NCBI RefSeq assembly: GCF_011758805.1
Contig: NZ_JAANOW010000001.1
Location: 3,596,001 to 3,660,000, forward strand
Reading direction: 5' to 3'
Length of the DNA stretch: 64,000 nucleotides
DNA from: Mycolicibacterium fluoranthenivorans
GTDB lineage: Bacteria; Actinomycetota; Actinomycetes; Mycobacteriales; Mycobacteriaceae
Shown: positions 10,080 to 58,539 of the stretch, piece by piece
Layout of the letters: each line of letters opens with the position of its first letter
Position numbering within the stretch: position 1 is the first letter of the stretch
Notes under the pieces: model-generated
Database searches by the model: none
What the model was told of the DNA's origin: nothing
What the model saw: only the letters and a program-made list of their open reading frames with translations
Made by a program: the position numbers and the translations under genes

Positions 10080-10093
10080 ATGACCAAAGGCCC
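10080..10093 (+). promoter_or_regulatory. candidate DosR box
   Basis: ATGACCAAAGGCCC matches the DosR core GGGACTWWAGTCCC at 10 of 14 positions. It lies 56 bp upstream of the WS/DGAT gene at 10149. Confidence 0.5.
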
Positions 10094-10148
10094 TAGTCGC
10101 CAAGGGGATCACCACCGAAGCTGAGAGGGTGTCCCCGAGGGAAGAGTC

Positions 10149-11546
10149 ATGACCAGTCACCACCTCAATGCACTGGAGGCCGGGTTCCTGCAGGCCGAGG
10201 ATGCCGACGGCCACACCAGTCTGGCCCTGGGTGCGGTCGCGCTCCTGAGCGGGCCGGCGCCCAGCCACGATCACCTGTTGACGGTGCTGGCGGAGCGCGC
10301 CGCCCGAGTCCCCCGCTGTCATGAGGTACTGCGCGAAACGCAGATGGACCTCGTGGCACCGCGCTGGGTCGAAGACGAGGGGTTCGACATCGCCCACCAC
10401 GTCCGCCGCGTCGCGGTGACGGCACCGGGCGACGACGCCGCGTTGTTCGCCGTCGTCGCGCAGGTGATGGAGCGGCGCCTGGACCGCTCGCGACCGTTGT
10501 GGGAATGCTGGGTGATCGATGGGCTGGCCGGTGACCGATGGGCGATGCTGATCAAGATCCACCACTGCGTTGCCGACGGTGTCGCCGCAACGGCGATGTT
10601 GGAGGAGCTGTGCGACGACTGGGCGCGCACCGCGCCTGCCGCCGACACTTCCGAGCCGACGACCAAGCCTTCGGGTAACTGGACCATGAACCCGGTCGGA
10701 TGGATGCAGTCAGCGTGGCGGATGTCGGCGCGCGCGCCGCGGGCCGCGCTCCGCGTCGCGAGCGGCGCCACCGAGCTGGCGACAGCACTTCTGGAGGTGT
10801 CGCCCAAATCCTTCACCGGGCCGTTGAGCGATCTGCGGACCTATAGCGCAGCCAAAGTGCAGCTCGACGACGTGCGCATGATCGGTGAGCGGCTCGGTGT
10901 CACGGTGAACGACGTGGCGCTTGCGGCGATCACAGACAGCTTCCGCTCGGCGATGCTGCGGCGTGGCCTCACCCCGAGGGCTCATTCACTGCGCACCGCC
11001 GTGCCGGTGTCGCTGAGATCGGCCGACGCCCTGCACATTCCCGACAACCGGATCGCGGTGACGTTGCCGCAGTTACCCGTCGAACACGCCGACCCGCTGC
11101 GGCGACTGCAAGCGGTCCACGACCGCATGATGTCGGCCAAATCCGGGGGTCAGGTGAGTGTGGGCGCACTGGCCGTCGCAGCGGCGGGGCTACTACCCTA
11201 TGCCGTCACGGCACCGGTGGTGCGGTTGCTGACCCGACTGCCACAACGCGGAGTGATCACCGTCGCCACGAACGTGCCCGGCCCGCGTCGTCGGCTGCAC
11301 ATCGCGGGGTGCGAGGTGCTCACGCTGCTGCCGGTGCCTCCGATCGCCATGCACCTTCGCACCGCGATCGCGATCCTGAGCTACTGCGATGAATTGGTAT
11401 TCGGGGTGATCGGCGATGCCGACAGCCCGCTCAGCCCGGAGGAACTGGCCCGCGGCATCGAAGCCGGAGTGGCCCATCTGGCCACCATCGCTGCAGCTGC
11501 GCGACATTCGCGACGGGTGGGCAACCTCCTCCTGTTGGCCGGATAG
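10149..11546 (+). CDS. wax ester synthase/diacylglycerol acyltransferase (WS/DGAT)
   Basis: WS/DGAT enzymes make triacylglycerol or wax esters from acyl-CoA. This 465-residue protein has the catalytic HHxxxDG motif as HHCVADG at residues 138-144, the PLWECW block before it, and the C-terminal domain with VNDVALAAIT, RTAVPVSLR and NVPGPRRRL motifs. The N-terminus MTSHHLNALEAGFLQAED fits the family start. A DosR-type box upstream suggests hypoxic induction like tgs1. It is one of three WS/DGAT genes in the window and is most similar by eye to the one at 54910-56274. Confidence 0.92.
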   Translation: MTSHHLNALEAGFLQAEDADGHTSLALGAVALLSGPAPSHDHLLTVLAERAARVPRCHEVLRETQMDLVAPRWVEDEGFDIAHHVRRVAVTAPGDDAALFAVVAQVMERRLDRSRPLWECWVIDGLAGDRWAMLIKIHHCVADGVAATAMLEELCDDWARTAPAADTSEPTTKPSGNWTMNPVGWMQSAWRMSARAPRAALRVASGATELATALLEVSPKSFTGPLSDLRTYSAAKVQLDDVRMIGERLGVTVNDVALAAITDSFRSAMLRRGLTPRAHSLRTAVPVSLRSADALHIPDNRIAVTLPQLPVEHADPLRRLQAVHDRMMSAKSGGQVSVGALAVAAAGLLPYAVTAPVVRLLTRLPQRGVITVATNVPGPRRRLHIAGCEVLTLLPVPPIAMHLRTAIAILSYCDELVFGVIGDADSPLSPEELARGIEAGVAHLATIAAAARHSRRVGNLLLLAG

Positions 11547-11575
11547 TCCGCAACTCCGAATGATTGGAGATGACC

Positions 11576-11887: not shown

Positions 11888-12145
11888 TCAGAGGGCCGAC
11901 ACGCTGCCCTCGAGGCTGCGGGCGAGATCGGACAGGGCACGCGTCACCGCCACCTGACTGCCCGATCCACCAGGTCCCTGCTCGCTGGGCGCCAGCCGGG
12001 CGAGCCCGGCACCCACCCATTCTCTCCCTTGGAAATTCAGCTTTGCTTTCGCGACGGTCTGGTCCTCACGATCGTCAATGGAGATCGTGACCAACCAACC
12101 GTCCTCGACCGGATCGAGCCGATCAGCACGCTCTTCGACGCTCAT
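11888..12145 (-). CDS. DUF1876 protein (Rv1738/Rv2632c-like)
   Basis: An 85-residue protein of the DUF1876 family, whose M. tuberculosis member Rv1738 is strongly DosR-induced and structurally resembles ribosome hibernation factors. The core shows WLVTISIDD, AKAKLNF, VGAGLARL and AVTRALSDLARSL in the family order. The ATG at 12145 has a strong GGAGG four bases upstream; the longer frame to 12178 lacks this. A DosR-type box lies 62 bp upstream. Two further family members occur at 21358 and 23273. Confidence 0.85.
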   Translation of the reverse strand: MSVEERADRLDPVEDGWLVTISIDDREDQTVAKAKLNFQGREWVGAGLARLAPSEQGPGGSGSQVAVTRALSDLARSLEGSVSAL

Positions 12146-12206
12146 GGGGACCTCCTCAAGATGCGGGACTGTCTTCATCCCAGCGCCACGCCGTCACCCT
12201 CCGGTA

Positions 12207-12220
12207 GGGCCCGAAGTCAC
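12207..12220 (-). promoter_or_regulatory. candidate DosR box
   Basis: On the minus strand GTGACTTCGGGCCC matches the DosR core at 10 of 14 positions, 62 bp upstream of the DUF1876 start at 12145. Confidence 0.5.
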
Positions 12221-12273
12221 ACGCACCCCGGACTTTCGTCAACCGCAGGTCACCCGGGGCGGCCGCGGAAGGG

Positions 12274-12287
12274 GGACTTATGGCCCT
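12274..12287 (+). promoter_or_regulatory. strong candidate DosR box
   Basis: GGGACTTATGGCCC matches GGGACTWWAGTCCC at 12 of 14 positions. It lies 37 bp upstream of the start at 12324; with the box at 12207-12220 it serves a divergent promoter region. Confidence 0.65.
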
Positions 12288-12763: not shown

Positions 12764-13639
12764 ATGCCTGAGCCTGAGGTCGCTGGCGCCATAGTCGTCG
12801 CCGTCGACGACTCGCCAGAGAACGTGGCCGCAGTGCGCTGGGCCGCAGAAGAGGCCCTCCTGCACGACCGCCCACTGGTACTCGTGCATGCGGTCACACC
12901 GGATATCGTCGACACCGACGAACCCGTTCTTCGCGCTCGGTTCGACCATTGGCGGATGCACTGCGCCCGAATGCTTCTCGCGAAAACCAAAGCGGACCTG
13001 GTCGAGCACACCCGGCTGGACGCCGACGTCATATCATCGGCACCGTACTTGGACAATCCGGTGAAGGCGCTGACCCGACTATCCGATGGCGCATGGATGA
13101 TCGTACTGGGCAGCCGTTTTCGCGGGTCCTTGGGCGGTCGGCGGATCGGCTCGACGAGCGCGGCCCTGTGCTATCGGGCCCGGTGCCCTATCGCGGTGAT
13201 TCACCGGCACGAGCAGATACCGGCGCAACGACCGGTCCTCGTCGGAGTCGACGGTTCAGCCGCGTCCACGCATGCGGTGGCCCTGGCGTTCGACGAAGCC
13301 GCGCGGCGGCGCGTCGGCCTGGTGGCGGTGCACGCATGGAGCGACGAAAATGTCCTGCAACTGCTGGGATCGGACTGGGAAGACTACCGCGGCCACGCCG
13401 AAGGGGCGCTGCGCCGGGCAGTGGCGGACTGGCGAGCACGTTATCCGGATGTCGAGGTGATCGAGAAGGTGTACTGCGATCGACCGGCCCACTGGCTCAT
13501 CGAGGAATCTGAGCACGCCGGTCTGGTGGTCGTGGGCAGTCACGGGCGCGGCGCCTTCTCGACCCAGATCAACGGGTCCGTTGCCACCGCAGTGGCCGAA
13601 GGCGCTGCCGTACCGGTGATCATCACCCGCGGGGCGTGA
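12764..13639 (+). CDS. tandem universal stress protein (two USP domains)
   Basis: A 291-residue protein with two USP folds. Domain 1 starts with AIVVAVDDSPENVAAVRWA, but its nucleotide loop is irregular (VLGSRFRGSLGGRRIGS). Domain 2 starts near residue 160 (VLVGVDGSAAS) and has a loop of the ATP-binding kind, VVGSHGRGAFSTQINGS. Tandem USPs of this class in M. tuberculosis (Rv2005c, Rv2623 type) are DosR-induced and can bind ATP. The gene lies 20 bp after the pyridoxamine-oxidase-like gene and 1 bp before the acetyltransferase gene, so it is probably the middle of a three-gene operon. Confidence 0.9.
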   Translation: MPEPEVAGAIVVAVDDSPENVAAVRWAAEEALLHDRPLVLVHAVTPDIVDTDEPVLRARFDHWRMHCARMLLAKTKADLVEHTRLDADVISSAPYLDNPVKALTRLSDGAWMIVLGSRFRGSLGGRRIGSTSAALCYRARCPIAVIHRHEQIPAQRPVLVGVDGSAASTHAVALAFDEAARRRVGLVAVHAWSDENVLQLLGSDWEDYRGHAEGALRRAVADWRARYPDVEVIEKVYCDRPAHWLIEESEHAGLVVVGSHGRGAFSTQINGSVATAVAEGAAVPVIITRGA

Positions 13640-13640
13640 C

Positions 13641-14195
13641 ATGGCCGAAGTACAGCCGGTTCCGACGGACCAGCGGCCCGACATCCCACGAATCGTCCCG
13701 CTGTTCGACGGAAGAGCAACGGTCACCTTGCGCCGACTCACTCCCGCCGACTTCGACGGGGTCGTCGAACTCGCCGACGAACTCAGCGAGGATGAAAAGT
13801 ACCTGCGCTTCTTCACCGCCCGCCCGGCGTTCATCCCGCAATGGGCCGCCTCGCTCACCGAACCTGCCGACGATGTCGTCGCACTCGGGGCCTTCGACCA
13901 CGGCGAGCTGGTCGGTGTGGCGAACTACACCCGCTCCGAGGTGCCCGACCACGCTGAGGTGGCCGTCGTCGTCGCGCGATACCAGCACGATCGCGGGGTG
14001 GGTACGGCATTGCTCGGAGAGCTCGTCCGACTCGCCAAGCGTGACGGTTTCCGGCACCTCGTGGCCGACGTCCTCGCGGAGAACCACCGTGTGCGGCGCG
14101 TCATCGCAGACTCCCACCTGCCGGTGACCTTGCACCGCGATGGATCCATTCTCGATGTGGACGTCGACCTAAACGGGATCCCGCAGGACGAGTAA
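13641..14195 (+). CDS. GNAT-family N-acetyltransferase
   Basis: A 184-residue single GNAT domain: VTLRRLTPADFDGVVELAD at the start, a strand pair AEVAVVVARYQHDRGVGTALLGELVRLAKRDG with the acetyl-CoA loop (RGVGTALL), and DVLAENHRVRRVI at the end. The pattern resembles the acetyltransferase domain of protein lysine acetyltransferases of the Pat type, some of which act on USPs and acyl-CoA synthetases; no cNMP domain is fused here. It begins one base after the USP stop. Its 3' end overlaps the convergent USP gene by 27 bp. Confidence 0.82.
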   Translation: MAEVQPVPTDQRPDIPRIVPLFDGRATVTLRRLTPADFDGVVELADELSEDEKYLRFFTARPAFIPQWAASLTEPADDVVALGAFDHGELVGVANYTRSEVPDHAEVAVVVARYQHDRGVGTALLGELVRLAKRDGFRHLVADVLAENHRVRRVIADSHLPVTLHRDGSILDVDVDLNGIPQDE

Positions 14196-14984
14196 CGAAC
14201 AATTCGTGCCGCGCAGGATCGCCGCGGCGACGGGGCCGATGAGCTGGGTGACCACTTCGGAGTCCGCCGCCGACGCAATGACCAGCTGGTCGATATCGGC
14301 GCTCTGGGCAAGGAGATTGGTGATGTCGCCGGGCCGTGGGAGTACCGCGATCTGCATATCGGCGTGGTCTCGCTCCCGATCACTGACCAGCGACTCCAGC
14401 CTTGCGCCGACATTCTCCGAACGCTCCGACTCGGCAGGCCACGGGGTGAGCGCAAGAATCGATGCGTCGCGCAACGTCGCCTCGTCGATCGCCCTTTTCA
14501 AAACGGCCTGTGGATCCGGCTGGTCGTCGAGAACGGCGACGATCCAACGATGCGGCCCGACGCGCTCACGGGCATGCCGACGGTGCACGATTGCCACCGT
14601 GGACTGCGCGGCCTTCGCCAGCCGCGCTGCGGTCGAGCCCCGCCGGCCCGGACCGGAATCGTGGGTGCCCTTCCAACCGACGCACACCAGATCCGCCGAA
14701 CGGGACACTTCGGCCAACACGTCCACCGGATCGCCCTGCAGAATGTCCGTCTCTATCTTGATCTGCAGTCCACTGGCATTCAGGGCTTCGCTGACGGCCT
14801 GCAGTGTGCGGCCCGCGTGGGCGACCACGCTGTCCTCGTCGTGATCGTGCGCGTCGACGACGTGGACCAATCGCAGCGGGACATCCCGGTTGACAGCTTC
14901 ATCTGCAGCCCAAAAGGCGGCTCCCAGGGCTGCTTTGGAGCCGTCGATACCGACGACAATGGGCTTCGATACCGACGTGGACAT
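14169..14984 (-). CDS. tandem universal stress protein
   Basis: A 271-residue USP pair. Domain 1 starts with PIVVGIDGSKAALGAAFWA; its loop region VGWKGTHDSGPGRRGS is intact. Domain 2, from about residue 147 (RWIVAVLDD), lacks a clear G-x2-G-x9-G(S/T) loop and is probably non-binding. The ATG at 14984 is preceded by GGAAAG on the minus strand. It lies 63 bp downstream of the MgtA-like ATPase in the same direction. Its second half closely resembles the truncated USP at 32763-33389. Confidence 0.88.
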   Translation of the reverse strand: MSTSVSKPIVVGIDGSKAALGAAFWAADEAVNRDVPLRLVHVVDAHDHDEDSVVAHAGRTLQAVSEALNASGLQIKIETDILQGDPVDVLAEVSRSADLVCVGWKGTHDSGPGRRGSTAARLAKAAQSTVAIVHRRHARERVGPHRWIVAVLDDQPDPQAVLKRAIDEATLRDASILALTPWPAESERSENVGARLESLVSDRERDHADMQIAVLPRPGDITNLLAQSADIDQLVIASAADSEVVTQLIGPVAAAILRGTNCSLLVLRDPV

Positions 14985-15047: not shown

Positions 15048-17678
15048 TCAGCTATGGGCTTTGGTCCTCAACCTCGGTACGTCAGTCCTTGTCACCAGGC
15101 GGCCATGATGACTGAAGCGTGCGGCGCGGCGGTGGATGCGCGTGTCCGCGCCGCGCGTGCGGGCTGGCGGTACACCGACGGGGTCGCGGTAGAACACCGA
15201 TTTGGTGACCTCGACCAGCACCAGGTAGGCGACGGCCATACCCGCAAGTGCGGCGAAGTACTGCCAGGGCAACGGCGCGAACCCCATGCTGCGGGCAGGA
15301 CCCCAGAAGCTGATGGCGATACCCACGGCGATCACGGCCACGGTCGCCAGGGTCAGCAGACCACCGGGCCGGCTGCGGGTGAAGGGAATTCGGCGCGTGC
15401 GTATGGCGAAGATGATGAGTGTCTGGGTCGCCAGCGACTCCACGAACCACCCGGTGCGAAACTCCGGTGGAGCGGCATGCAGCACGCCGAGCATCAGGCC
15501 GAAGGTCAAGAAGTCGAACAGGGAACTGACCGGACCGAAGGTGAGCATGAACCGCCTGATGAAAGCGATGTTCCAATGTGAAGGAGCACGCAGCTGTTCG
15601 GGGTCGACCCGGTCGGTGGGGATGGCCAACTGGGAACTGTCGTACAGCAGGTTGTTCAGCAGGATCTGACTGGGCAGCATCGGCAGGAACGGCAGGATCG
15701 AGGAGGCGGCGGCCGCACTGAACATGTTGCCGAAATTGCTCGAGGTGCCCATCAAGACGTACTTGATGGTGTTGGCGAAGATGCGTCGACCTTCTGCGAC
15801 GCCGGCGGCGAGCACACCAAGGTCCTTCTCCATCAGCACCACGTCCGCCGCGTCTTTGGCGACATCACTGGCAGTATCGACGGATATCCCGACATCGGCG
15901 GCATGAAGTGCCAGCGCATCGTTGACCCCGTCGCCCAGGAACCCCACCGCCCGTCCGACGCGGCGGGCCTCGGTGATCAACGCCGCCTTCTGTTCGGGTG
16001 AGATCCTGGCAAAGATGGTGTGGTTCTGGACGGCACTCGCGTAGTCCTCAGGACCGAGGGCCGCCAGTTCGGCTCCCGTGATGGTCCCTCTTGTCGGCAA
16101 ACCCAGCTCGGCGCACACTTTCTCGGCAACGCGCGGGTTGTCTCCGGTGGCGACCTTGACCTCGATCCCCAGCTCTGCCAAAGCGTGCAGGGATTGCGCT
16201 GCAGCGGGTTTCGGCTCGTCGGCGAAACACAGAAATCCGTCCAAGGTCAGGTCTGCCTCGTCGGCCGCCTCGATCTCGGTCAGGTCAGGGGCTGGTCGGC
16301 TCGCCACTGCCACGACACGTCGCCCCTCGTCGAAGAGCGCGTTCAACGTCGCCTGGGCACCGTCTGGCACCGTGACGCAATGCGCGAGGATCTGCTCGGG
16401 GGCACCCTTGGTCACGAGTCGGCGCTGTCCCCGGTCGTCGACCAAGGCGGATGTCGCTCGCCGGGCATGATCGAACGGGAGTACCGCCACGCACCGCGCG
16501 CCGTCGATGCTCACGGTGCCGGCGGCCGCGGTGAGGGCGGCGTCCAGCGGATTGGCACTCTGCCCGCCCGCGGTCTCCAGGTCGCTGGCCAGCAGTCCGA
16601 GCCTGAGGACCGCGTCGCTGTGGGTACCGGTGGCGTCGACGGCATCGATGTAGGTGATCTGGCCGTTGGTGAGCGTCCCGGTCTTGTCCGTGATCAGCAC
16701 ATCGATATCGCCGAGGTCCTCGATGCAGACCAGACGTTTGACGAGGACATGTTGGCGGGCCAACCGTCGTGAACCGGTCGCCAGGCTGGTACTGACCACC
16801 GCGGGCAGCAATTGCGGGGTGATGCCGACGGCGATCGCCAACGCGAACAACGCTGCGTCGATCAGGGGGCGTCCGAGCATCACGTTGATCCCCAGGATGA
16901 AGGCGGTCAGGATCAGCGCCACCCACAGCAGGAGATAGGAGAACTTTCGCAGGCCCCGCTGAAAGTCGGTCTCGGGCTGGCGTTCACCCAGTCCGACAGC
17001 AAGCCTGCCGAACTGAGCGCGCTCGCCGGTGGCATAGACGATGCCCACAGCGTCGCCCGCGGTGACGACGGTGCCCATGAACGCCAAGTTGGAACAGTCG
17101 GGCAGGCTGCGCGCATCGTCGACGGACAGCGCAGTTTTCTGGGCCGGTGTCGATTCTCCGGACAGGATGCTCTCGTTGCACTCCAGTCCATGGACCGTCA
17201 CCAGACGGATATCGGCGGGCACCACCTCCCCCAGCGTCAACCGGACCACATCGCCCACCACCAGATGGGTGACACTGTCTTTGGTGAACTGACCGTCCCG
17301 ACACACCAAGGCGAAATGGTGGACCTGCGAATGCAATTGCGCGGTGGCACGCTCGGCGCGGTATTCGTTGACGAAACTCAACCCGATGCTGGCGATCAAG
17401 ATGACCCCGATGATCAGTGCCTGGGTGTGATCACCGAGGAAGAACGCCATGACCGCGGTGGCGGCCAGGAGCAGCAGCAGGGCGCTGCGCAACTGGCGCA
17501 TCAGCACGGCCCACGCGCTGACCCGGTGGGTGCGTACGGCGTTGGGGCCGTCGCGGTCCAGCCGCAGCCGGGCTTCTTCCGACGTCAGACCGGTGGTCAT
17601 ACTGCCGAGTGTGGTGAATGCGTCCTCGGCGGGCACCGCGGCGGCCCACTCCCTGGTGAGCTGGTCCGGCGCCATCAC
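15048..17678 (-). CDS. MgtA-like P-type ATPase (Mg2+ or other cation transporter)
   Basis: An 876-residue P-type ATPase. Visible landmarks: the phosphatase loop SGES near 173-176, the membrane motif GITPQLLPAVVS near 285-297 that is typical of the MgtA (P3B) class, the phosphorylation site D331 in DKTGT, and the hinge GDGVNDALAL later. It lacks heavy-metal-binding domains and a CPx motif. DosR-regulated CtpF of M. tuberculosis is a related P2-type pump; substrate here is probably Mg2+ by motif. The GTG at 17678 overlaps the upstream USP stop as GTGA; an ATG at 17675 is an equal alternative. Confidence 0.9.
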   Translation of the reverse strand: MMAPDQLTREWAAAVPAEDAFTTLGSMTTGLTSEEARLRLDRDGPNAVRTHRVSAWAVLMRQLRSALLLLLAATAVMAFFLGDHTQALIIGVILIASIGLSFVNEYRAERATAQLHSQVHHFALVCRDGQFTKDSVTHLVVGDVVRLTLGEVVPADIRLVTVHGLECNESILSGESTPAQKTALSVDDARSLPDCSNLAFMGTVVTAGDAVGIVYATGERAQFGRLAVGLGERQPETDFQRGLRKFSYLLLWVALILTAFILGINVMLGRPLIDAALFALAIAVGITPQLLPAVVSTSLATGSRRLARQHVLVKRLVCIEDLGDIDVLITDKTGTLTNGQITYIDAVDATGTHSDAVLRLGLLASDLETAGGQSANPLDAALTAAAGTVSIDGARCVAVLPFDHARRATSALVDDRGQRRLVTKGAPEQILAHCVTVPDGAQATLNALFDEGRRVVAVASRPAPDLTEIEAADEADLTLDGFLCFADEPKPAAAQSLHALAELGIEVKVATGDNPRVAEKVCAELGLPTRGTITGAELAALGPEDYASAVQNHTIFARISPEQKAALITEARRVGRAVGFLGDGVNDALALHAADVGISVDTASDVAKDAADVVLMEKDLGVLAAGVAEGRRIFANTIKYVLMGTSSNFGNMFSAAAASSILPFLPMLPSQILLNNLLYDSSQLAIPTDRVDPEQLRAPSHWNIAFIRRFMLTFGPVSSLFDFLTFGLMLGVLHAAPPEFRTGWFVESLATQTLIIFAIRTRRIPFTRSRPGGLLTLATVAVIAVGIAISFWGPARSMGFAPLPWQYFAALAGMAVAYLVLVEVTKSVFYRDPVGVPPARTRGADTRIHRRAARFSHHGRLVTRTDVPRLRTKAHS

Positions 17679-18562: not shown

Positions 18563-18663
18563 GGTCCGTCCCTTCCTCCTCGGTGCCGGGGCCTTGATAG
18601 ACGAGGCCTTTCATGTGCGGAATCCTTCCGGATGAGTCGATGCAGCGTTGCGTTTCACGGCGG

Positions 18664-20275: not shown

Positions 20276-20289
20276 GGGACCAATGGCCC
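20276..20289. promoter_or_regulatory. candidate DosR box shared by divergent genes
   Basis: GGGACCAATGGCCC matches the DosR core at 11 of 14 positions. It lies 56 bp from the minus-strand start at 20220 and 67 bp from the plus-strand start at 20356, so one box may serve both directions. Confidence 0.6.
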
Positions 20290-20355
20290 TTCTGCGCAAC
20301 GTGACGTTGAGCGATGGTCAAGGGGTCTTCACACCATGCCGAAGGGACTCCGAAC

Positions 20356-42142: not shown

Positions 42143-42153
42143 ACGGCTCGACG

Positions 42154-48180: not shown

Positions 48181-48186
48181 CCGGTC

Positions 48187-48223: not shown

Positions 48224-48315
48224 ATATCGGACCTTCGCTTGCACGCCGAGTTGGCCTCTCGCATCAGCGTTTCCGGGACCGATAAGGCCGATCACACCGT
48301 TGGACCGAGGAGGTC

Positions 48316-49143: not shown

Positions 49144-49212
49144 TCACCGGTGCCCTCTCGTCCCCCGCACTACCCCACAAGTAGCTGATTTCAACCTCGA
49201 AGGAGAACGTAC

Positions 49213-50476: not shown

Positions 50477-51376
50477 TCAGTCCGCTCGGGCGACGATCAC
50501 CGGCATCCGGGCAGCGTGGACAACCGCGGAACTCACCGATCCCAGCAACATCCCGGCGAAGCCGCCGCGGCCATGGCTGCCGACCACGAGCAGCTGGGCC
50601 TTATCGGCGTGGGTGAGCAGCTGTCGGGCGGGATGATTGCACTCCAGCACCGGGCGGACCGTCACCTCCGGGTAACGCTTCGTCCACTCCTTGAGGTGCC
50701 CGGCCAGCATGACTTCGGCCGTTCGTTGCAGGTCGCCCCAGTACGGTGTGGCCAGGTCGTCGCTGCGGTCACTCCAGACGTGCACGGCGACAAGCTCCAC
50801 ACCCCGCCGGGTGGCCTCTTCGAAGGCGATCTCGGTCGCCAACTCGGACGCCGGGGAACCGTCGATGCCCACCACCACCGGCGCGTGTGCCGGGTCGGGC
50901 ATCAGTGGGTCCTCGTCGCGGATGACCGCTACCGGACAGTGCGCCCCGTGCACCAGGCCGGACGAGACGGACCCGAGGAGCAATCGGCCCACTCCGCCGA
51001 GCCCGCGGCAACCGACCACGACCATATCGGCGTCCGCGGACAACGCCACCAGCGCAGGAACCACGGGAGCCGACAGGAGCCGGCGCTGAACGACCACACC
51101 CGGGTGCTCGGAGATGGCGTCGGCAGCCACGCCGACTGCATCGGTGAGGACCTTCTCCGCGAGCCGATCACGCTCTGCCCAGTACTCTTCCGAGATCGGT
51201 ACGTCCATCCAGGAGACCATTGTGCCGGTCGGCACCACATGTACGACCGTGAGCGTGGCCCCGCGCAGCTCGGCATCCCGAGCTGCCCAATCGACGGCAA
51301 CTCGGGATGCGGGCGATCCGTCGGCTGCCACGACGATGCCGAGTGGCTTTCCCGTCGATACTGCATCGGTGCTCAT
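50477..51376 (-). CDS. tandem universal stress protein
   Basis: A 299-residue double USP from ATG 51376, with AAGGAG about 7 bp upstream. Domain 1 begins GIVVAADGSPASRVAVDWA with loop [17 protein letters not shown]. Domain 2 begins [22 protein letters not shown] with loop [17 protein letters not shown]; both look ATP-binding. It is a close paralogue of the genes at 26788 and 49213, and convergent with the latter across about 360 bp. A weak DosR-like box lies 95 bp upstream. Confidence 0.9.
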   Translation of the reverse strand: MSTDAVSTGKPLGIVVAADGSPASRVAVDWAARDAELRGATLTVVHVVPTGTMVSWMDVPISEEYWAERDRLAEKVLTDAVGVAADAISEHPGVVVQRRLLSAPVVPALVALSADADMVVVGCRGLGGVGRLLLGSVSSGLVHGAHCPVAVIRDEDPLMPDPAHAPVVVGIDGSPASELATEIAFEEATRRGVELVAVHVWSDRSDDLATPYWGDLQRTAEVMLAGHLKEWTKRYPEVTVRPVLECNHPARQLLTHADKAQLLVVGSHGRGGFAGMLLGSVSSAVVHAARMPVIVARAD

Positions 51377-51470
51377 GTCACGCTCCTTCGACACATTCAG
51401 GGCTCCCCGGTCTGCTGCCGATCACCAACAGCACCAACGCATCATGAATCAGCCGCGGTACCGTCGTCGA

Positions 51471-51484
51471 GAGTCGAAGGTCAC
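51471..51484 (-). promoter_or_regulatory. weak candidate DosR box
   Basis: GAGTCGAAGGTCAC matches the DosR core at 9 of 14 positions. It lies 95 bp upstream of the USP start at 51376 and shares GAAGGTCAC with the boxes at 36646 and 47590. Confidence 0.4.
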
Positions 51485-51504
51485 CCAGTTCAGTTGTCCT
51501 CGCT

Positions 51505-52881
51505 TCAATCCCGCAGATCACGGTGCGGGGCGAATTCGAGTGCCAGCAAGACCGCCGCGGCGGGAAGAACGCCGATCAAGGGAAGCAACACGTAGCGGCG
51601 CTCCGACATCGCGTCGAACTTTCGCAGGTAGCGATACAGCGATTCGAGCTTGACGACCCGATCACCGGCATGGGCGAGCAGCCTGAGGATTCGCAGCGCC
51701 GCATTGCTGGAGGCACTTGCGAACAGGTCGGGAAACGGCGCGAAGGACAGCGAAACCCGTTGGAAACCATGCTCCTTTGCCCAGGCGATCATGTCCACGG
51801 CCAGCCGCTCATCGACTCCGTTCGGCGCGTCCGGCCGCCGCCAGGGCAGATCCAGGCTCAGATCGCTCCCGTTGCCCGCACTGACATAGCGTTGAAACGC
51901 CTCTACTCGCCCGGTCTTGCCACGGGCGATGATCAGCAACACACCCGGGTAACGGCCCGACAGCGCACGACCGAGCATCATCGAGAAGCCCCGGTGCGTG
52001 TTCTTGTGCGATGTGTCGATCACTTCGAGTAGTTCACGTTTCAGGGCGTCATCCAGATCGCGTTCCATCAGTACTTCTGTGGTCACATGAGCGTTATGGC
52101 TGCGGTTGACGGCCTGCCGCAGATTCCGCTTCGATCTGCCGACCAGATCGAACCGATCGACATCGACGACGACATCGCGACCGAAGGAGATCGCCCGCAA
52201 GCGCGGACCCGGGACCAGGTCGCTCTGCCACATGCCCACCTGGTGCGCCGAGGCGCCCAGCACCACGATTCGCCAACCGTGGGCCCGGCACAGTGCGGCG
52301 AAATCACCGACCACCTCGCCGTAGCGTGCCGGGTCGCCGATCGGATCGCCGCTGACGACCGCGAACCCCGCCACTGCGCGGTACGCCACTGCGGCAGCCC
52401 CGTCTCCGGAGAAGACGTAGCTCTTCCCCGGCGCCATCGCAAACGGAGCCAACGGATCGTCGCGCGTCTGGTCGACGAGCACCGACACCGCCTCCAGTGC
52501 CGCCGGCTCATATCTGGAATCGCTGGGCCACACAAAGACAACCGCCGCCGCGACGACACCCAGGATCGCACCGCCGGGGTGCCCGCTGAGGCCGATGAAC
52601 ACCCCGGTGAGCACCAGTGCCCCGGCAAATCCCGCGTGCAGTGCGGTGAACGGGCGCCCGAGGACGCGCCCGTGGACGACGATGACCGCCGCCGAGGACA
52701 CGGCCACGACGTCCATCCGGGTGATTCCGCGAGCCGTCTGACCCGCACGGTGCAGAGCGAACAACAATGCGGCCGCACAGACGGCGAGAAGGGCAACCCC
52801 GGCCCAGGAGGTGTGCCGCCGTGCGCTCCCCGTCGGGAAGCGGGTCGGCGTCGTCACCTCGGTAACGCAGTCCTCGTTCAT
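51505..52881 (-). CDS. membrane protein with phosphatidylglycerol lysyltransferase-type domain (DUF2156)
   Basis: A 458-residue protein. Four short hydrophobic segments lie in residues about 25-125, then a DUF2156 acyltransferase domain: SYVFSGDGAAAVAYRAVAGFAVVSGDPIGDP, FAALCRAHGWRIVVLGAS, and GRSKRNLRQAVNRS followed by LSLSFAPFPDLF-like sequence near the end. This domain transfers aminoacyl groups in MprF/LysX-type enzymes. Compared with MprF the membrane part is short, and there is no lysyl-tRNA synthetase fusion. A role in lipid aminoacylation is inference. Start ATG 52881; a weak DosR-type box lies about 77 bp upstream. Confidence 0.78.
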   Translation of the reverse strand: MNEDCVTEVTTPTRFPTGSARRHTSWAGVALLAVCAAALLFALHRAGQTARGITRMDVVAVSSAAVIVVHGRVLGRPFTALHAGFAGALVLTGVFIGLSGHPGGAILGVVAAAVVFVWPSDSRYEPAALEAVSVLVDQTRDDPLAPFAMAPGKSYVFSGDGAAAVAYRAVAGFAVVSGDPIGDPARYGEVVGDFAALCRAHGWRIVVLGASAHQVGMWQSDLVPGPRLRAISFGRDVVVDVDRFDLVGRSKRNLRQAVNRSHNAHVTTEVLMERDLDDALKRELLEVIDTSHKNTHRGFSMMLGRALSGRYPGVLLIIARGKTGRVEAFQRYVSAGNGSDLSLDLPWRRPDAPNGVDERLAVDMIAWAKEHGFQRVSLSFAPFPDLFASASSNAALRILRLLAHAGDRVVKLESLYRYLRKFDAMSERRYVLLPLIGVLPAAAVLLALEFAPHRDLRD

Positions 52882-52957
52882 ACGCAGCACCGAATTCCTC
52901 GGATGACTTTCACCCCCCGATTCTGCGAGCCTGCCAGCCCGCAGACACACCCCGCTA

Positions 52958-52971
52958 GAGTCCAATGTCCT
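52958..52971 (-). promoter_or_regulatory. weak candidate DosR box
   Basis: GAGTCCAATGTCCT matches the DosR core at 9 of 14 positions, 77 bp upstream of the DUF2156 gene. Confidence 0.4.
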
Positions 52972-53074
52972 CGTTTCGGGGTTCGCGGGGAACCTTCGAC
53001 GCTGTGCACCCTGGGGCGGTGCTACGACGCACCGGCCAGAGCCGACGATGTCAACGATCCGAGTATCGACATCG

Positions 53075-54394
53075 TCAGGCATCGAGCGCGAGCACCTCGT
53101 CGAAACTCTCGATCAGGCAGTCGCGGAAGGCCGCGACATCCGGGATGGCGGCGGTGTCGACATTGATCCCGAAGGCGCAGACGTCACCGTAGCTCAAGAG
53201 GGTGATGTTGACCGCCGTACCCAGCGTCGGGGCGAACGCGTACTGCCTGCGCACCGCGGCACCAGCCAGGCTGACCGGCGTGGGGAATCCGGGCACATCG
53301 CTGGCCAGGAAGTCGACGTTTTGAAACAGTGACCGGGTATACCAGTCAGGCACGAGGTTGAGCGCACCGGCGATGAGGGGTGTGACCGGCACCGTCTTCT
53401 CCGCCCGTTGGGCGCCGGTCAGTTCATGGATCTTCCGGATGCGCACCGCGGAATCGGCGGGACCGGTGGGGACGGCGAACCGCATCAGCGTGGTCCGGTT
53501 GCCACCGACCTGGTCGGTTTTGGTGCGAAGGTTGATGGGCATCATCACCACCAACTCCTCCACGGACACCCCGTGTTCGGCGTGGTAGCGACCGAGACCG
53601 CCGGAGACCGCTGCGAGGAAGGCGTCATTGAGCGAGCCGCCGGCGATCTCCGCCGCCCGGTGAAGTGCGTCCTTGGACACCTCATGCATGACCAGCTCTC
53701 GAATGCTGCCGCGTTTCTGCATCATCGGTGATCTGCGGCGGCGTGGACGAGTGGTCCGCCATACCGAGGCCGTCAACGCCCCCGCCATGCCGAACGTCGC
53801 CACCGGCCGCAACATCGCCTCGACGACAAGTGCCGGCCCGGCGCGCATTGAGCCGAACAGTGCGCCTGCAGCCATCCGCGTCAGCTGCAGCAGATCAGGT
53901 TGCTTCGGTGTCGGCAGCGGCCGCCCCTGCGCCAGGTCGTCGAACAGCAGCCGACCGATCTCCACCGCCCCGACACCGTCGGTCAGCGCATGGTTCATCC
54001 GGCAGAGCAGGGCCGCTCCCCCACCGGCCATTCCCTCGATGAGCGTTGCCTCCCACAGCGGATGAGCTGCGTCGAAGTCGGCCATCGCGGCGAGCCGCGC
54101 CAACTCCAGGACCCCGTCGAGGTCCCCCGAACGGGGCGCGCCCACCCGACGTAGATGGAAAGCCAGGTCGAACTCGGGATCGGGTTCCCAGCGTGGTGGT
54201 GCCGGCCACGGTGACGGCACCACACGCTTACGGAACATCGGCGCCATGCGGCTGATGGCCTCGAACCGATCGGCCACGCTGGCGAAGTCCGGTGTGCTGT
54301 CGAGCAGAATCAGCGTCACGATCGTCGATCTGAATCGTGCATCGGTCCCGATCGACCAGATGAACGCGTCGCTGCTCCTCAGGAAGGCAACCAT
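53075..54394 (-). CDS. WS/DGAT-family acyltransferase with variant active-site motif
   Basis: A 439-residue member of the WS/DGAT family, shorter and more divergent than the other two copies. The block HPLWEATLIEGMAGGGAALL is followed by the active-site motif NHALTDG at 134-140, in which the first His of HHxxxDG is Asn; the catalytic second His and the Asp-Gly are kept. LVVMMPINLRTK and DVPGFPTPVSL mark the C-terminal domain. It may have reduced or different acyltransferase activity. The ATG at 54394 lies 54 bp after the phasin-like gene, in the same direction. Confidence 0.85.
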   Translation of the reverse strand: MVAFLRSSDAFIWSIGTDARFRSTIVTLILLDSTPDFASVADRFEAISRMAPMFRKRVVPSPWPAPPRWEPDPEFDLAFHLRRVGAPRSGDLDGVLELARLAAMADFDAAHPLWEATLIEGMAGGGAALLCRMNHALTDGVGAVEIGRLLFDDLAQGRPLPTPKQPDLLQLTRMAAGALFGSMRAGPALVVEAMLRPVATFGMAGALTASVWRTTRPRRRRSPMMQKRGSIRELVMHEVSKDALHRAAEIAGGSLNDAFLAAVSGGLGRYHAEHGVSVEELVVMMPINLRTKTDQVGGNRTTLMRFAVPTGPADSAVRIRKIHELTGAQRAEKTVPVTPLIAGALNLVPDWYTRSLFQNVDFLASDVPGFPTPVSLAGAAVRRQYAFAPTLGTAVNITLLSYGDVCAFGINVDTAAIPDVAAFRDCLIESFDEVLALDA

Positions 54395-54447
54395 GACGCG
54401 TCCCCTCTCAATCGAGACGATAGCGCCAGGCCACAGCCCCGCGCTTG

Positions 54448-54741
54448 TTACTTCTGGTCGCCTTCTGACCGCGTCAGTGCCCGATCCGCACTGCGAATGA
54501 GCTTGCGGTTGAACTGATACTGGGCGGCGGCCAGGGTGTCGGCCAAATCGATCGCGGCGTCGATGATCTTCGTCCGGAGCGGCTGGACCGCCTCGGGGAT
54601 CGCCTCATCAAGGGTGTGGCTGAACTTGCGCAGGGCCTCCGCCGCTGCGTGCTGGCCCGTCCGAGCGGACTCACGAACCTCGTCGAACAGTTCGGCCGGT
54701 TGCGTTCCAGGGGATTTCTGTTCCGTTGTCGTCTCGGTCAT
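54448..54741 (-). CDS. small helical phasin-like protein
   Basis: A 97-residue, mostly helical protein: ELFDEVRESARTGQHAAAEALRKF, LDEAIPEAVQPLRTKIIDAAIDLADTLAA and YQFNRKLIRSADRAL, with long Ala-rich amphipathic segments. Phasins that coat lipid or PHA granules look like this. It is flanked by two WS/DGAT genes, so a lipid-droplet role is attractive but is inference. AAGGAG lies 6 bp upstream of ATG 54741, and two DosR-type boxes follow at 54808-54844. Confidence 0.65.
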   Translation of the reverse strand: MTETTTEQKSPGTQPAELFDEVRESARTGQHAAAEALRKFSHTLDEAIPEAVQPLRTKIIDAAIDLADTLAAAQYQFNRKLIRSADRALTRSEGDQK

Positions 54742-54909: not shown

Positions 54910-56274
54910 CTACGGGCGTTCGGTCAGTGCGACAAGCCGGTCAATCGCTTGTTCGATTCCCCGCGCCAGCTCATCGACATCCGGCGCAGCGTCGTAGTCG
55001 GCGGTGATGCCGAAGTACAGACTGTCGGCGTAGCTCAGAATCGCGATACCCGTGCGCAACTGGAGCGCGATGGGTGGAATGGGGAGTATTCGCGCCACCC
55101 TGCAGCCCATGATCTTCAGGCGCCGGCGCGGCCCGGGAACGTTCGTCGCGAACGTCACGACACCTCGTTGCGGGAGCCGCATCAATGCCCTGGCCGCCCA
55201 TGCCGTCAGGGCGAAGGGCAGCGCGCCGACCGCGGTGACGAAGATGCTCACCGCCTCACGTTGGCCGGCCTTCTTCGACCTGGTCAGTCGGTGGCGCACC
55301 GATTGAAGCTGCTCCAGCGGATCGTCTTTGTCGACGGGGAGCAACGGGAGCATCAGCGATACCCGATTGTCGGTGAGATTCATTGCGTCGGTGGCGCGTA
55401 CGGACACCGGTACCAAGGTCCGAAGCGACGTCTTCTGCGGCTCTTCTCCGCGGCGAATCAGGGCATCCCGGTAGCTGGAGGTGATGGCGGCCAGGGCGAC
55501 GTCGTTGAGCGTGACATCGAACCTGCTCTGAATTCGCTCCACGTCGCGAAGTCGAACATGTGCGGCGCTGAACCGCCTCATCGTCGTCACCGGTCCCGTC
55601 AGCGACGATTCTGCTGCCGGGTTCAGCAGTCCCCCGGCGATCTGCAACGCACCTGCGACCGACCGTGACGCCGTATCGGTGAGGGTCGTGGCGACATGCC
55701 AGAGTGCCCCCGGCCATTCCAGCGGATTCAGCACCACTCCACGCACGTCGGGGGCGCTGGCAGTCACTCTGGACGCCCGGATGTCGGTGGCGAACGTGTC
55801 CGGGCTTCCCGAATCACTGAGGCCGGCGAACATCTGCATGGTCGCGATACCGTCTGCGATGCAGTGGTGCATCTTCATCAGCAGACCCCAGCGGCCGCCG
55901 GCCACACCTTCGATGATCCAGCATTCCCACAGCGGCCGGTCCCGGTCGAGCCGGCGTTCCATGACATCGGCGACGAACCGGAACAGTGCCTGGTCGTCAC
56001 CACCGTGTGGAAGGGCGGCCCGATGAATATGGCGATGCGGGTCGAACGTGGGATCCTCCGCCCAGTGCGGGGCGCCCAGATCGAGACGGTGTACCTGCAA
56101 CACCTGCCGGAAGCGCTCGACCCGAGCGACCCGCTCCGCGATCGCGGCGCCAACACTGTCGAATTCCGGCATCGGGCCATCCATCACCGCCACCGCCCCG
56201 AGGGCAAGGCTCACGTGTCGGTCGGAATCCTCGGCTTCGAGAAACGCCGAATCCAGAGGCGATAGTCGTTCCAT
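54910..56274 (-). CDS. wax ester synthase/diacylglycerol acyltransferase (WS/DGAT)
   Basis: A 454-residue enzyme with the full motif HHCIADG at 136-142, preceded by RDRPLWECWIIEG. The N-terminus MERLSPLDSAFLEAEDSDRHVSLAL and the C-terminal FATNVPGPRRRLKIMGC and GIAILSYADSLYFGITAD blocks fit the Tgs1 type. It is a likely triacylglycerol synthase of the dormancy response. Start ATG 56274. A DosR-type box lies 36 bp upstream, facing the divergent Crp-like gene. Confidence 0.92.
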   Translation of the reverse strand: MERLSPLDSAFLEAEDSDRHVSLALGAVAVMDGPMPEFDSVGAAIAERVARVERFRQVLQVHRLDLGAPHWAEDPTFDPHRHIHRAALPHGGDDQALFRFVADVMERRLDRDRPLWECWIIEGVAGGRWGLLMKMHHCIADGIATMQMFAGLSDSGSPDTFATDIRASRVTASAPDVRGVVLNPLEWPGALWHVATTLTDTASRSVAGALQIAGGLLNPAAESSLTGPVTTMRRFSAAHVRLRDVERIQSRFDVTLNDVALAAITSSYRDALIRRGEEPQKTSLRTLVPVSVRATDAMNLTDNRVSLMLPLLPVDKDDPLEQLQSVRHRLTRSKKAGQREAVSIFVTAVGALPFALTAWAARALMRLPQRGVVTFATNVPGPRRRLKIMGCRVARILPIPPIALQLRTGIAILSYADSLYFGITADYDAAPDVDELARGIEQAIDRLVALTERP

Positions 56275-56309
56275 GCGACGACTGTTCGCCGTCCACAGCC
56301 GAACGCACA

Positions 56310-56323
56310 GAGGCGAAAGTCAC
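56310..56323 (-). promoter_or_regulatory. candidate DosR box
   Basis: GAGGCGAAAGTCAC matches the DosR core at 10 of 14 positions, 36 bp upstream of the WS/DGAT gene. Confidence 0.5.
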
Positions 56324-56365
56324 CGATCCGCCGGGAGATTCCATCCGCGGCGTGTGACGCGACAG

Positions 56366-56379
56366 AGGACTTTCGGCCC
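56366..56379 (+). promoter_or_regulatory. candidate DosR box
   Basis: AGGACTTTCGGCCC matches the DosR core at 11 of 14 positions and lies 29 bp before the annotated start of the Crp-like gene (69 bp before a possible GTG start near 56449). Confidence 0.55.
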
Positions 56380-56407
56380 TGCTGTGGACCGATGCACCGG
56401 CGGCATC

Positions 56408-57319
56408 ATGTTCCTTGCCGATGGACGTCGCGTAGAAAAGGCCTCAGCTGTGAAGTACACCTATCGAACGTGCTCTCAACCGCCGTTGGTGCGCGCGGCC
56501 CGGGTCGATCAGCAATTCGCGACGGTGGCACAGCTTCCGTCGTTGCGTGCGACGAGCCCGTCCTCAGCCTGGGCAAGCGTCCTGTCACACAGTTGGCTGC
56601 TCGACGAGCCGACAGCTCAAGACGCCCTTTGCATCGATGAGGTGTTCGGAAAGTACTTCCATCTCGCGGATTTCCCTTCGGGTAAGCAGATCTACCACCA
56701 AGGCGATCCAGGCGACCGGGTGTACGTGATCATCTCGGGCTTGGTCAAGGTGTCGTGCACGCTGGCCAACGGGACCGAAGTGGTGCGTGGCTTGATGGGT
56801 GCCGGCGATGTGGTCGGCGAACTTGCGGTCTTCGATCCCGGTCCGCGCAGTCAGACCGCAACGTGCCAAACCCTGGTTCGGGCAGCGTGGTTGACCAGGG
56901 AGTCGGTTCGTCGGCTGACGCGACAACATCCCGACCTGGCCCAGCGCTGGTTGCAGGCGCTCGCTGCGCACATACGCAGCCGCGAGGCGGAGATCACCAG
57001 CATGCTGGCCGCCGACGTATCGACCCGGGTTGCCCGCCAGATCATCTTGCTGGCCGAGCGATTCGGCGAGAGTGCCGACGGGTATGTGCGCGTGCGGCAC
57101 ACACTCACGCGTCATGAGTTCGCTCAGCTCGCCGGCGCCAGACGGGAGGCGGTGAGCCAAGCACTTGCGAAGTTCGTCGAGCGCGGCCTGCTCATCACCA
57201 CACCGGGCGGCTTCGACATCATCGACCTGAGCGATCTGCGACGCCGCGCCCACTCGGCGTTTCCAGAACTCGGGACCTCGGTCATCGGACGATTCGACAC
57301 CGCGGTGGCACGGAGGTGA
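56408..57319 (+). CDS. Crp/Fnr-family transcriptional regulator
   Basis: A regulator of up to 303 residues. After about 75 poorly conserved residues comes a cyclic-nucleotide-binding fold (FPSGKQIYHQGDPGDRVYVIISGLVKV, GDVVGELAVFDPGPRS) and a C-terminal HTH_Crp domain with LTRHEFAQLAGARREAVSQALAKFVERGLL. The phosphate-binding cassette has E and L where cAMP-binding CRP has the RS pair, although RS follows in PGPRSQT. No Fnr-type Cys cluster is seen, but three Cys are present. The N-terminal start is uncertain. It is coupled to the next Acg-like gene by a GTGA overlap. Confidence 0.85.
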   Translation: MFLADGRRVEKASAVKYTYRTCSQPPLVRAARVDQQFATVAQLPSLRATSPSSAWASVLSHSWLLDEPTAQDALCIDEVFGKYFHLADFPSGKQIYHQGDPGDRVYVIISGLVKVSCTLANGTEVVRGLMGAGDVVGELAVFDPGPRSQTATCQTLVRAAWLTRESVRRLTRQHPDLAQRWLQALAAHIRSREAEITSMLAADVSTRVARQIILLAERFGESADGYVRVRHTLTRHEFAQLAGARREAVSQALAKFVERGLLITTPGGFDIIDLSDLRRRAHSAFPELGTSVIGRFDTAVARR

Positions 57320-58212
57320 CGGCCATGCCGGGCGCGATGCTGCCACCGCAACTGCTCAGTGACGCTGTGGAGATGGCCTGCCGCGCTCCTTCCCTGCACA
57401 ACAGCCAACCGTGGCGCTGGGTCGCCGAAGGGACATCGACGCTCAACCTCTACGCCGAGCCCGGTCGCGCGCTGACCACGTTGGATCCGCTGGGGCGTGA
57501 GATCTACCTGAGTTGCGGTGCGGCCCTGGATCATCTGGTGGTTGCGCTGGCCGCCGCGGGATGGGTCGCCGATGTGCAGCGGTTTCCTGATCCCGCCGCC
57601 CCGCTGCACCTGGCCGAAATCCACTTCCGTCCGGTCGCCGGTGATATATCGGTACAAGCGTGCGAGCGGGCTGAAGCCATCCTGGCCCGTCACACCGACC
57701 TGCGCCCCTTCGAAGCTCCGGCCGACTGGACGAGACTCGAAGTGACACTGCGCCAAACGGTCATTCCCTATCACGTCATGTTCGACACGGTGCTCCCGCC
57801 GGACAGACCCCGACTGGCCGAGACGTGGCAGCTCGCCGAGGAATTGAACCCCGCGGATCACCGCGGCCATCCCGAATCATGCTGGTGGGCCTCTGAACTC
57901 GACCACTCGGAGACCGTTGTCCTGTCCACGTCCCATGAGGATTATCGCCACGATCTGCTGCGCTGCGGCGAGGCGCTGTCAGCCGTCCTGCTCGAATGCA
58001 CGATGGCCGGCCAAGCCACGTGCACCCTGTCTCATATGACCGAGCTTGCGCAGCCCCGGGAACTCCTGCGCGCCCTCATCGACCAGCGCGGTACGCCGCA
58101 AGTGCTGATCAGAGTGGGTCAGGCCGAAGCGAAGCCCGGTTTCACCATGACCCCGCGCAAGTCCGTGGCACAGGTGATGGACTTTCAGCCCGAGTCCCCG
58201 CGCCTCCGGTAA
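57316..58212 (+). CDS. Acg-family nitroreductase-like protein with internal deletion
   Basis: A 298-residue Acg-type protein starting at GTG 57316 inside the Crp-like gene's stop (ATG 57325 is an alternative). CRAPSLHNSQPWRWVAEG and GEALSAVLLECTMAGQATCTLSHMTE match the paralogues at 20356 and 28947. In the middle, the region that in the others spans about 35 extra residues (the lid with a WW/RY-G motif) is absent, and the sequence passes directly from LNPADHRGHPESCWWASEL to VVLSTSH. This may alter flavin access. It is the third Acg member in the window. Confidence 0.85.
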   Translation: MTAMPGAMLPPQLLSDAVEMACRAPSLHNSQPWRWVAEGTSTLNLYAEPGRALTTLDPLGREIYLSCGAALDHLVVALAAAGWVADVQRFPDPAAPLHLAEIHFRPVAGDISVQACERAEAILARHTDLRPFEAPADWTRLEVTLRQTVIPYHVMFDTVLPPDRPRLAETWQLAEELNPADHRGHPESCWWASELDHSETVVLSTSHEDYRHDLLRCGEALSAVLLECTMAGQATCTLSHMTELAQPRELLRALIDQRGTPQVLIRVGQAEAKPGFTMTPRKSVAQVMDFQPESPRLR

Positions 58213-58539
58213 CCCGATCTCATGTCCGGCGCCGGTGTTCACACCGGTTGACCACCGGCGTCCTCTTCCTGTGAGCGTGTGAATGCCGCCACCGCGGTGG
58301 GTAGCGTGAGAAAGAGCGCTCATCCACTCGTCATGATGGCCACTCCAACGCTCGTCCTGCGGTATCCGACTGAGACCAAGCGGCCCGGCATCGAGTGGTG
58401 AAGGGCCCAAGGTCCTGTTGGCACGCCTGCCCCCGGCGAAGACCTTTGGCGGTACGTCGGTGACCAAAGACTCCAGTGCACAGAAGTCCAGGTTCGTAAC
58501 GTCATTTCCGAACTCGACTCCGGTACGAGAGGACGCGAA
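58213..58539 (+). promoter_or_regulatory. intergenic region with two DosR-type boxes
   Basis: This 327-bp stretch holds no convincing gene. GGGCCCAAGGTCCT at 58403-58416 and GTGACCAAAGACTC at 58460-58473 each match the DosR core at 10 of 14 positions; the second lies 66 bp before the USP at 58540. The rest shows no other recognisable element. Confidence 0.5.

Follow-up and report, generated by a model that had tools for sequence, protein, structure and literature searches.

In Mycobacterium tuberculosis the genes of the DosR (DevR) dormancy regulon are scattered and a single devR is present. Clustered versions of comparable regulons have been described elsewhere. In M. smegmatis, two hypoxia-induced clusters, msmeg_3926-3955 (31 genes) and msmeg_5241-5246, each contain a copy of devR and consist mostly of Dos-regulon homologues (PMC2799521). 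The OsdR regulon of Streptomyces coelicolor is likewise clustered, in SCO0167-0181 and SCO0198-0219, with a possible 27 elements at a low cut-off (PMC5069765), and M. avium possesses a DosRS-dependent cluster, MAV_2494-2508, whose DosT-like kinase MAV_2508 is reported to be without a functional heme-binding domain (PMC11876180). The present analysis concerns a locus of Mycolicibacterium fluoranthenivorans contained in a 64-kb stretch of DNA (hereafter the window; C1:3596001-3660000 of a 6.41-Mb, six-contig genome), and coordinates without the prefix C1 are window positions. In this nontuberculous Mycobacterium the locus is very probably an island of the DosR/DevR dormancy regulon, to which a low-oxygen switching scheme can be provisionally ascribed. 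It encodes a predicted DevR-type response regulator (DevR2) and a predicted DosT/DevS-type heme kinase (DevS2) amid genes of DosR-regulon families, and a palindromic box, often paired at a distance of about 22 bp, stands before most of the putative transcription starts.

A preliminary sequence-only reading had placed about 29 such boxes between 10080 and 58473, several agreeing with the consensus at 11 or 12 of 14 positions and often occurring in pairs, ahead of DosR-regulon gene families, and each of these observations is borne out. A scan of the window with the consensus GGGACTWWAGTCCC gives 48 sites at up to four mismatches; by the gene list used, 29 are intergenic, and every one of these falls within 10080-58473. 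Among the 14 window sites with up to three mismatches, four match at 12 and ten at 11 of the 14 positions. The interval, which makes up 0.755% of the genome, holds 14 of the 155 sites that a whole-genome search detects at up to three mismatches (1.2 expected, P ~2e-11) and four of the 13 at up to two (P ~2e-6). The consensus is not over-represented genome-wide, the 155 sites comparing with 458 for the same pattern read backwards at up to three mismatches. Local densities were set against a background of 16 stretches of 20 kb each (320 kb) from the same genome, with the backwards reading of GGGACTWWAGTCCC and four scrambled versions as pattern controls. At up to three mismatches, there are nine intergenic sites in 7.1 kb of the island as against two in 47.6 kb of background, and five within-gene sites in 41 kb as against eight in 272 kb, while the backwards and four scrambled patterns yield 0, 0, 2, 2 and 0 intergenic island sites. 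At up to four mismatches, the density in the island relative to background is 7.7-fold for the DosR pattern and 2.7-fold for one scrambled pattern.

Further, a symmetrical weight matrix of 18 columns was trained on 22 sites from the islands of eight other species, with none from this genome, and a score of at least 8 was taken as the threshold in counts. It detects 22 intergenic sites in 7.3 kb of the island and six in 47.6 kb of background, a density plainly unequal to that in random intergenic DNA of the genome, which was the comparison that the sequence-only reading had proposed. Counting all sites, the island has 36 and the 320-kb background 22, i.e., 3.3 expected, with at most three in any single 20-kb stretch; outside about 9.9-58.6 kb, the window has no site with a score of 7 or more. 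Several boxes that appeared to be genic on account of imperfect gene starts or calls (e.g., 56310/56366 and 12207-12286) were reassigned by hand. Under a single mechanical gene caller, a site at this threshold lies no more than 250 bp upstream of 22 of the 50 genes at 9.8-61.0 kb, as compared with four of 270 in the background. With a hand-curated list of 31 starts in the interval, two of which (those of hyp196 and the Crp-like gene) are guessed, 25 have such a site, some divergent pairs sharing one, and none of the five curated starts flanking the island on the left or the three on the right does.

The spacing of the boxes constitutes separate evidence, since the matrix held no spacing information. 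Among 32 strong island sites, a second site lies 21, 22 or 23 bp away, centre to centre, in seven placements, against a mean of 0.57 per offset over offsets 12-80, although an offset of 56 bp also has three placements. In the eight relatives, 97 strong sites give 24 placements at 21-23 bp versus a mean of 0.96 per offset. In both counts a pair made up of two strong sites is scored twice, once from each end, and the placements are thus not independent events. In the background, where the threshold was relaxed from 9 to 7.5 and gave 31 sites, none has a second site at 21-23 bp. A spacing of about 22 bp amounts to two helical turns and would fit cooperative binding of dimers; DevR of M. tuberculosis is described as binding cooperatively to closely packed sites that overlap the -35 element (PMC3029386, PMC5360333).

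The boxes and genes are arranged as follows. Box scores are matrix scores, and domain assignments come from Pfam scans of 60 window proteins, a subset of its open reading frames (ORFs).

10080..10093: DevR box (12.4) marking the left edge of the island, 62 bp ahead of Tgs_a
10149..11546, + strand: Tgs_a, a wax ester synthase/diacylglycerol acyltransferase (Tgs-like; PF03007, PF06974)
11888..12178, - strand: gene for an Rv2632c-like small protein (PF08962; family match at C1:3607912-3608100)
12207..12286: three DevR boxes, 12207, 12229 and 12273, before the first PF08962 gene (scores 12.1 and 16.9; 12229 by mismatches only)
12764..14195, + strand: Usp1 and a GNAT acetyltransferase (PF00582, PF00583); no box, best upstream score 0.9
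14169..14984, - strand: Usp2 (PF00582); paired boxes 15055/15076 (10.0, 9.1) inside the 3' end of the adjoining gene
15048..20220, - strand: AAA-domain protein, Usp3 and CtpF-like P-type ATPase (Pfam), a presumed operon; box 20276-20289
20276..20289: DevR box (15.6) common to the AAA operon and the nitroreductase-DevR2 operon
20314..22511, + strand: nitroreductase, PF08962 protein (21343-21639) and Usp4 (Pfam), a presumed operon running into devR2
22598..23257, + strand: DevR2, a response regulator of NarL/LuxR type aligned to 3c3w; exact start approximate
23273..23563, - strand: third PF08962 gene; box 23600-23613 (10.1)
23667..27663, + strand: unknown protein, P-type ATPase with a C-terminal hemerythrin domain, and Usp5 (PF00122, PF01814, PF00582)
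27817..29939, - strand: two conserved unknown proteins and nitroreductase 2; boxes 28879 and 30026
30044..31475: divergent genes for a 119-aa conserved protein (-) and Usp6 (+); boxes 30473/30509
31490..33389, - strand: alpha/beta-hydrolase-like protein and 208-aa protein; paired boxes 33460/33482
33514..35541, - strand: DevS2, a heme GAF histidine kinase of DosT/DevS type (GAF, HisKA_3, HATPase); no proximal box, best upstream score 5.8
35790..36056, - strand: 88-aa ORF, start picked by eye; behind boxes 36118/36150 (17.2)
36131..39873: DUF2267 protein (-), Hrp1-like CBS protein (+), Rip3-like M50-CBS protease (-) and phosphoribosyltransferase-hydrolase (-) (Pfam)
36646, 36721 and 39931/39984: boxes for the block from DUF2267 to the phosphoribosyltransferase-hydrolase (scores up to 17.0)
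39990..42870: conserved unknown protein and baeRF family-2 protein (+; PF18844), 379-aa conserved protein (-); boxes 42888/42934
43603..46691, - strand: PfkB kinase and a phosphoribosyltransferase-erythromycin-esterase-like fusion (Rv2030c-like; PF00294, PF05139, PF00156); box 46730 (9.2)
46771..47583, - strand: ribosome hibernation factor (RafH-like; S30AE; PF16321, PF02482)
47590..47674: DevR boxes 47590, 47639 and 47661 between the RafH-like gene and hspX (scores 12.5 and 17.6; 47639 by mismatches only)
47677..50061, + strand: HspX-like small heat-shock protein (Hsp20), Usp7 and Usp8 (PF00011, PF00582)
50477..54741, - strand: Usp9, 97-aa protein, Tgs_b and lysyl-phosphatidylglycerol synthase-like protein
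51471 and 54808/54831: a weak site (7.5) for Usp9, and paired boxes preceding the 97-aa protein, Tgs_b and the lysyl-phosphatidylglycerol synthase-like protein
54910..58212: Tgs_c (-), Crp-like regulator (+) and nitroreductase 3 (+); boxes 56310, 56366 and 57272
58403..58473: the final two DevR boxes in the interval (13.1, 11.2), before Usp10
58540..62815, + strand: Usp10, BON-domain protein, Usp11 and acyl-CoA synthetase (Pfam), a presumed operon behind the last boxes

DevR2 aligns with DevR of M. tuberculosis (3c3w) over 210 residues (E 7.8e-108) and keeps the phospho-Asp region and a 13-residue recognition helix identical to that of its counterpart; a 12-residue motif from this helix is found in 35 of 45 DevR rows and as a close variant in three, with the search motif unmatched in seven. 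The sequence-only reading had also suspected a slightly shifted box consensus in this species, a suggestion which fails in view of this identical helix and of the resemblance in base frequencies between the 32 island sites and the 97 of the eight relatives (at position 6, where both sets have C and T at similar frequency, C 0.41/T 0.39 in the island versus C 0.31/T 0.37). The devR2 gene follows the nitroreductase, PF08962 and Usp genes in the same direction behind box 20276, and is likely to amplify its own expression via this promoter.

DevS2, in turn, aligns with the heme domains of DosT and DevS (2vzw, 2y8h, 4ynr) and keeps the proximal heme histidine and the distal tyrosine in the aligned HPPMR and LY motifs, the roles of His149 and Tyr171 being taken from PMC4082495. 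Its relatives align from about residue 104-116, and one from residue 80; the true start is probably near 35.2 kb. The closest named match is from M. canariasense (76% identity). The devS2 gene lies 10 kb from devR2, and a related kinase gene adjoins a devR in several relatives (e.g., G006, G015, G029 and G031). As judged by eye, DevS2 is DosT-like at three discriminating positions (in DevS numbering, Gly for E87, Gly for D90 and Lys for L118), resembles neither kinase at another three (Ser for both H97 and T169, Trp for H89) and is DevS-like at one (Val at V108). It is not filed as a DosT because the canonical DevS of the same genome is itself DosT-like, again by eye, at five positions (E87, H89, D90, H97 and T169). 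Close to devS2, the idea that boxes 36118/36150 drive a small RNA was set aside, given that the 88-aa ORF starts at a distance of 69 bp and that its DNA has matches in relatives G027, G024, G004, G002 and G009. An Rfam search of the window gave no match at gathering scores.

A second devR, 82% identical to DevR2 at the protein level, and a devS (40%) lie together at C1:789-791 kb (devR at 790.8 kb), on the same contig at a distance of 2.8 Mb. Since the two DevR proteins are so similar and share the recognition helix, it could be that this canonical pair mainly runs the island, with DevR2-DevS2 being redundant or having another target set, and the report that the DosT-like MAV_2508 of M. avium does not take part (PMC11876180) would favor such an arrangement. 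However, devR2 is situated within the island itself, where it presumably belongs to an operon whose promoter is boxed, and DevS2 keeps the heme histidine, unlike MAV_2508 as reported, so that we regard control mainly by the canonical pair as rather unlikely, while giving it real weight. In a tree of DevR proteins, the island and canonical versions of this genome fall in an unresolved fork, and those encoded in the islands of other species are spread over several groups, so that the tree gives no origin for DevR2.

Probable members of the regulon also lie beyond the island. An fdxA-like gene for a Fer4 (4Fe-4S) ferredoxin lies 10.6 kb left of the window (C1:3585.0-3585.4 kb; L015:9008-9340) with the box GGGACCAAAGTCCC, whose score of 22.0 is the highest among the sites listed for the window and four neighboring and canonical stretches (L013-L016), a list that excludes individual background scores. 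The canonical devR-devS-nitroreductase locus (C1:789-793 kb) is likewise outside, a perfect 14/14 box is present at C1:801096 (L014:5097) just before the gene for COX1 (terminal oxidase subunit I), and nine of the 13 strict genomic boxes (up to two mismatches) are outside the interval. The claim of the sequence-only reading that nearly the whole DosR regulon is gathered here thus holds as regards a large island, but is too strong because the strongly boxed fdxA-like gene, the canonical devRS and the COX1 box lie elsewhere. Intergenic sites with a score of at least 8 number four in 3 kb in the right neighboring stretch (L016), two in the left one (L015) and three in the canonical 40 kb. In the right-hand stretch, a box pair 22 bp apart (3141/3163; L016:3106-3176) precedes a DUF3298 gene, and the regulon may hence extend beyond the right end of the window. 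Left of the island, a block at 4682-9848 has no DevR boxes and encodes a Nuo51/4Fe-4S protein along with a histidine kinase and an ApbE-domain protein. It is possibly, at a guess, a flavinylation-type redox locus, and genes resembling those for its kinase and ApbE-domain protein are found next to the island of relative G024 as well.

The gene content of the island includes, by Pfam, 11 Usp proteins, three Tgs-type acyltransferases, three nitroreductase-like proteins, two P-type ATPases and three Rv2632c-like proteins, as well as PfkB, S30AE, Hsp20, CBS, M50-CBS, baeRF, Crp-like, LuxR-type response regulator and GAF-GAF histidine kinase representatives; pairings of island genes with single Rv genes of M. 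tuberculosis are ones that we presume. Of the 19 Usp loci in the genome, as counted from 31 domain matches, 11 belong to the island, nine of them in the interval and two in the operon behind the last boxes. The three PF08962 genes lie within 12 kb and are the only three matches over the cut-off in the genome, the first and third each having its own box. As a separate observation, the P-type ATPase-hemerythrin fusion at 24362-26704 can be aligned along almost the entire protein in relatives G034 (67%) and G024 (61%).

In eight of eight relatives, DosR-type genes cluster around the DevS2 relative, though these species were chosen for having this kinase and the count is hence not a frequency. Gene order around it is much altered between species, except in M. 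canariasense, where a 21.7-kb locus (L033) keeps the gene order of the window between Usp7 and Usp5, barring the DUF2267, Hrp1 and Rip3 genes, which have no match, and the Rv0571c-like gene, which is absent from the order. A less selected sample is provided by the Rv2030c-like gene, found at threshold in 19 of 37 same-genus genomes (the present one included): devR is within 25 kb in 14 of these, at about 53 kb in one, at about 1 Mb in one, on another contig in two (where fragmentation is possible) and not detected at threshold in one. The contrast that the sequence-only reading drew with the scattered regulon of M. tuberculosis may be real, but clustering of dormancy genes is common in the sampled genus, and a clustered arrangement had been described for M. 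smegmatis in 2010 (PMC2799521).

Plasmid records with DevR relatives number 36 and include 16 of Rhodococcus and 14 of Streptomyces; two of the Rhodococcus plasmids were examined. On pDK2 of Rhodococcus sp. DK17 (L082), 20 sites with a score of at least 8 occur in 40.6 kb around its two devR genes, versus two in 40 kb of pDK2 taken as a control, and on Rhodococcus pRWAY01 (L081) there are eight versus three in the same-plasmid control. Both regions have devR, GAF kinase and Usp genes, together with an Hsp20 gene in pDK2 or a Tgs-type gene in pRWAY01. A literature search, covering mostly titles and the openings of abstracts, brought up no title dealing with a DosR cluster carried on a Rhodococcus plasmid, from which absence is not claimed. 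These box-rich plasmid blocks, along with the altered gene order between species, might suggest that the island is a recently acquired foreign element. But its G+C content in 2-kb segments (0.64-0.70) is comparable to that of the rest of the window (0.62-0.71), no integrase or transposase is present among the 60 window proteins scanned, and the same families are found in relatives of the genus, all of which render recent acquisition quite improbable. A broader proposal is that dormancy islands are portable, self-regulating modules of Mycobacteriales, with content and boxes kept, order shuffled, several having their own DevR and comparable box-rich blocks residing on Rhodococcus linear plasmids, and that the scatter in M. 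tuberculosis is a derived dispersal; we consider this speculative and would put it forward only tentatively. Lastly, to take the boxes for fortuitous palindromes in GC-rich DNA, and the gene cluster for a general stress-gene neighborhood not run by DevR, is scarcely credible: about three intergenic matches are indeed expected by chance at up to four mismatches, weak sites do occur in the background and the pattern is rarer genome-wide than its backwards control, but this is outweighed by the roughly 24- to 30-fold intergenic and 11-fold overall excess over the genome's own background, the lack of a comparable excess with scrambled controls, the derivation of the matrix from other species and the spacing preference.

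Taken as a DevR-run island, the locus would operate by the following scheme. Low oxygen, or nitric oxide or carbon monoxide on the heme, would lead DevS2 and the canonical DevS to phosphorylate DevR2 and DevR, and the phosphorylated dimers would bind neighboring boxes, spaced by two turns and facing the same side of the helix, by the -35 region. Bound dimers would then jointly activate the genes for stress proteins, lipid storage, ribosome hibernation and redox functions, with devR2 amplifying itself from its boxed promoter. The devS2 gene, which has no box, may be expressed steadily, as would suit a sensor. The comparable M. smegmatis cluster is induced by hypoxia (PMC2799521).

Several points weigh against this account. 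Control of the island by DevR is deduced from sequence, which is compatible with action by either of the two DevR proteins. Operons and gene starts are inferred throughout, including the two guessed starts. Six of the 31 curated starts have no site at threshold, namely those of Usp1, Usp5 (7.5), Usp7, Usp9 (7.5), Tgs_b and DevS2; some of these are probably inner genes of operons, which does not explain Usp1. The clustering in all eight relatives is biased by the choice of species bearing a DevS2 relative, and Usp matches also cross-match one another. The likeness to M. smegmatis is drawn from the published description.

No new mechanism is revealed by the island. What it offers is a large, clean natural set of DevR target promoters, with about 30 boxes, a clear pairing rule and two close DevR proteins in one mycobacterium, and working out the genes that each DevR drives there could reveal the way in which a dormancy program stays together or disperses in evolution.

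With respect to M. tuberculosis, the box, the recognition helix of the regulator, the type of heme kinase and many gene families are shared with the DosR/DevR regulon, whereas a large block of the genes here forms one island and the genome has two close devR genes. As in msmeg_3926-3955 of M. smegmatis, contiguous regulon genes are accompanied by their own devR with a second devRS elsewhere; the window island differs in that its roughly 50 kb carry three Tgs-like genes and 11 Usp genes, and no hydrogenase is present among the window proteins scanned, a Ni-Fe hydrogenase being among the M. smegmatis exceptions (PMC2799521). SCO0167-SCO0219 of S. coelicolor resembles it in the clustering of regulator, kinase, Usp and nitroreductase genes and in the type of palindrome, and differs in its nitrate reductase and pyruvate phosphate dikinase, its more G+C-rich box and its tie to development (PMC5069765). 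The M. avium cluster MAV_2494-2508 similarly combines Usp and nitroreductase genes with the gene for a DosT-like kinase, but is smaller, and DevS2 keeps the heme histidine where MAV_2508 is reported as non-functional in heme binding (PMC11876180). The window island is, in this light, a large further case of a cluster type already published from M. smegmatis, S. coelicolor and M. avium.

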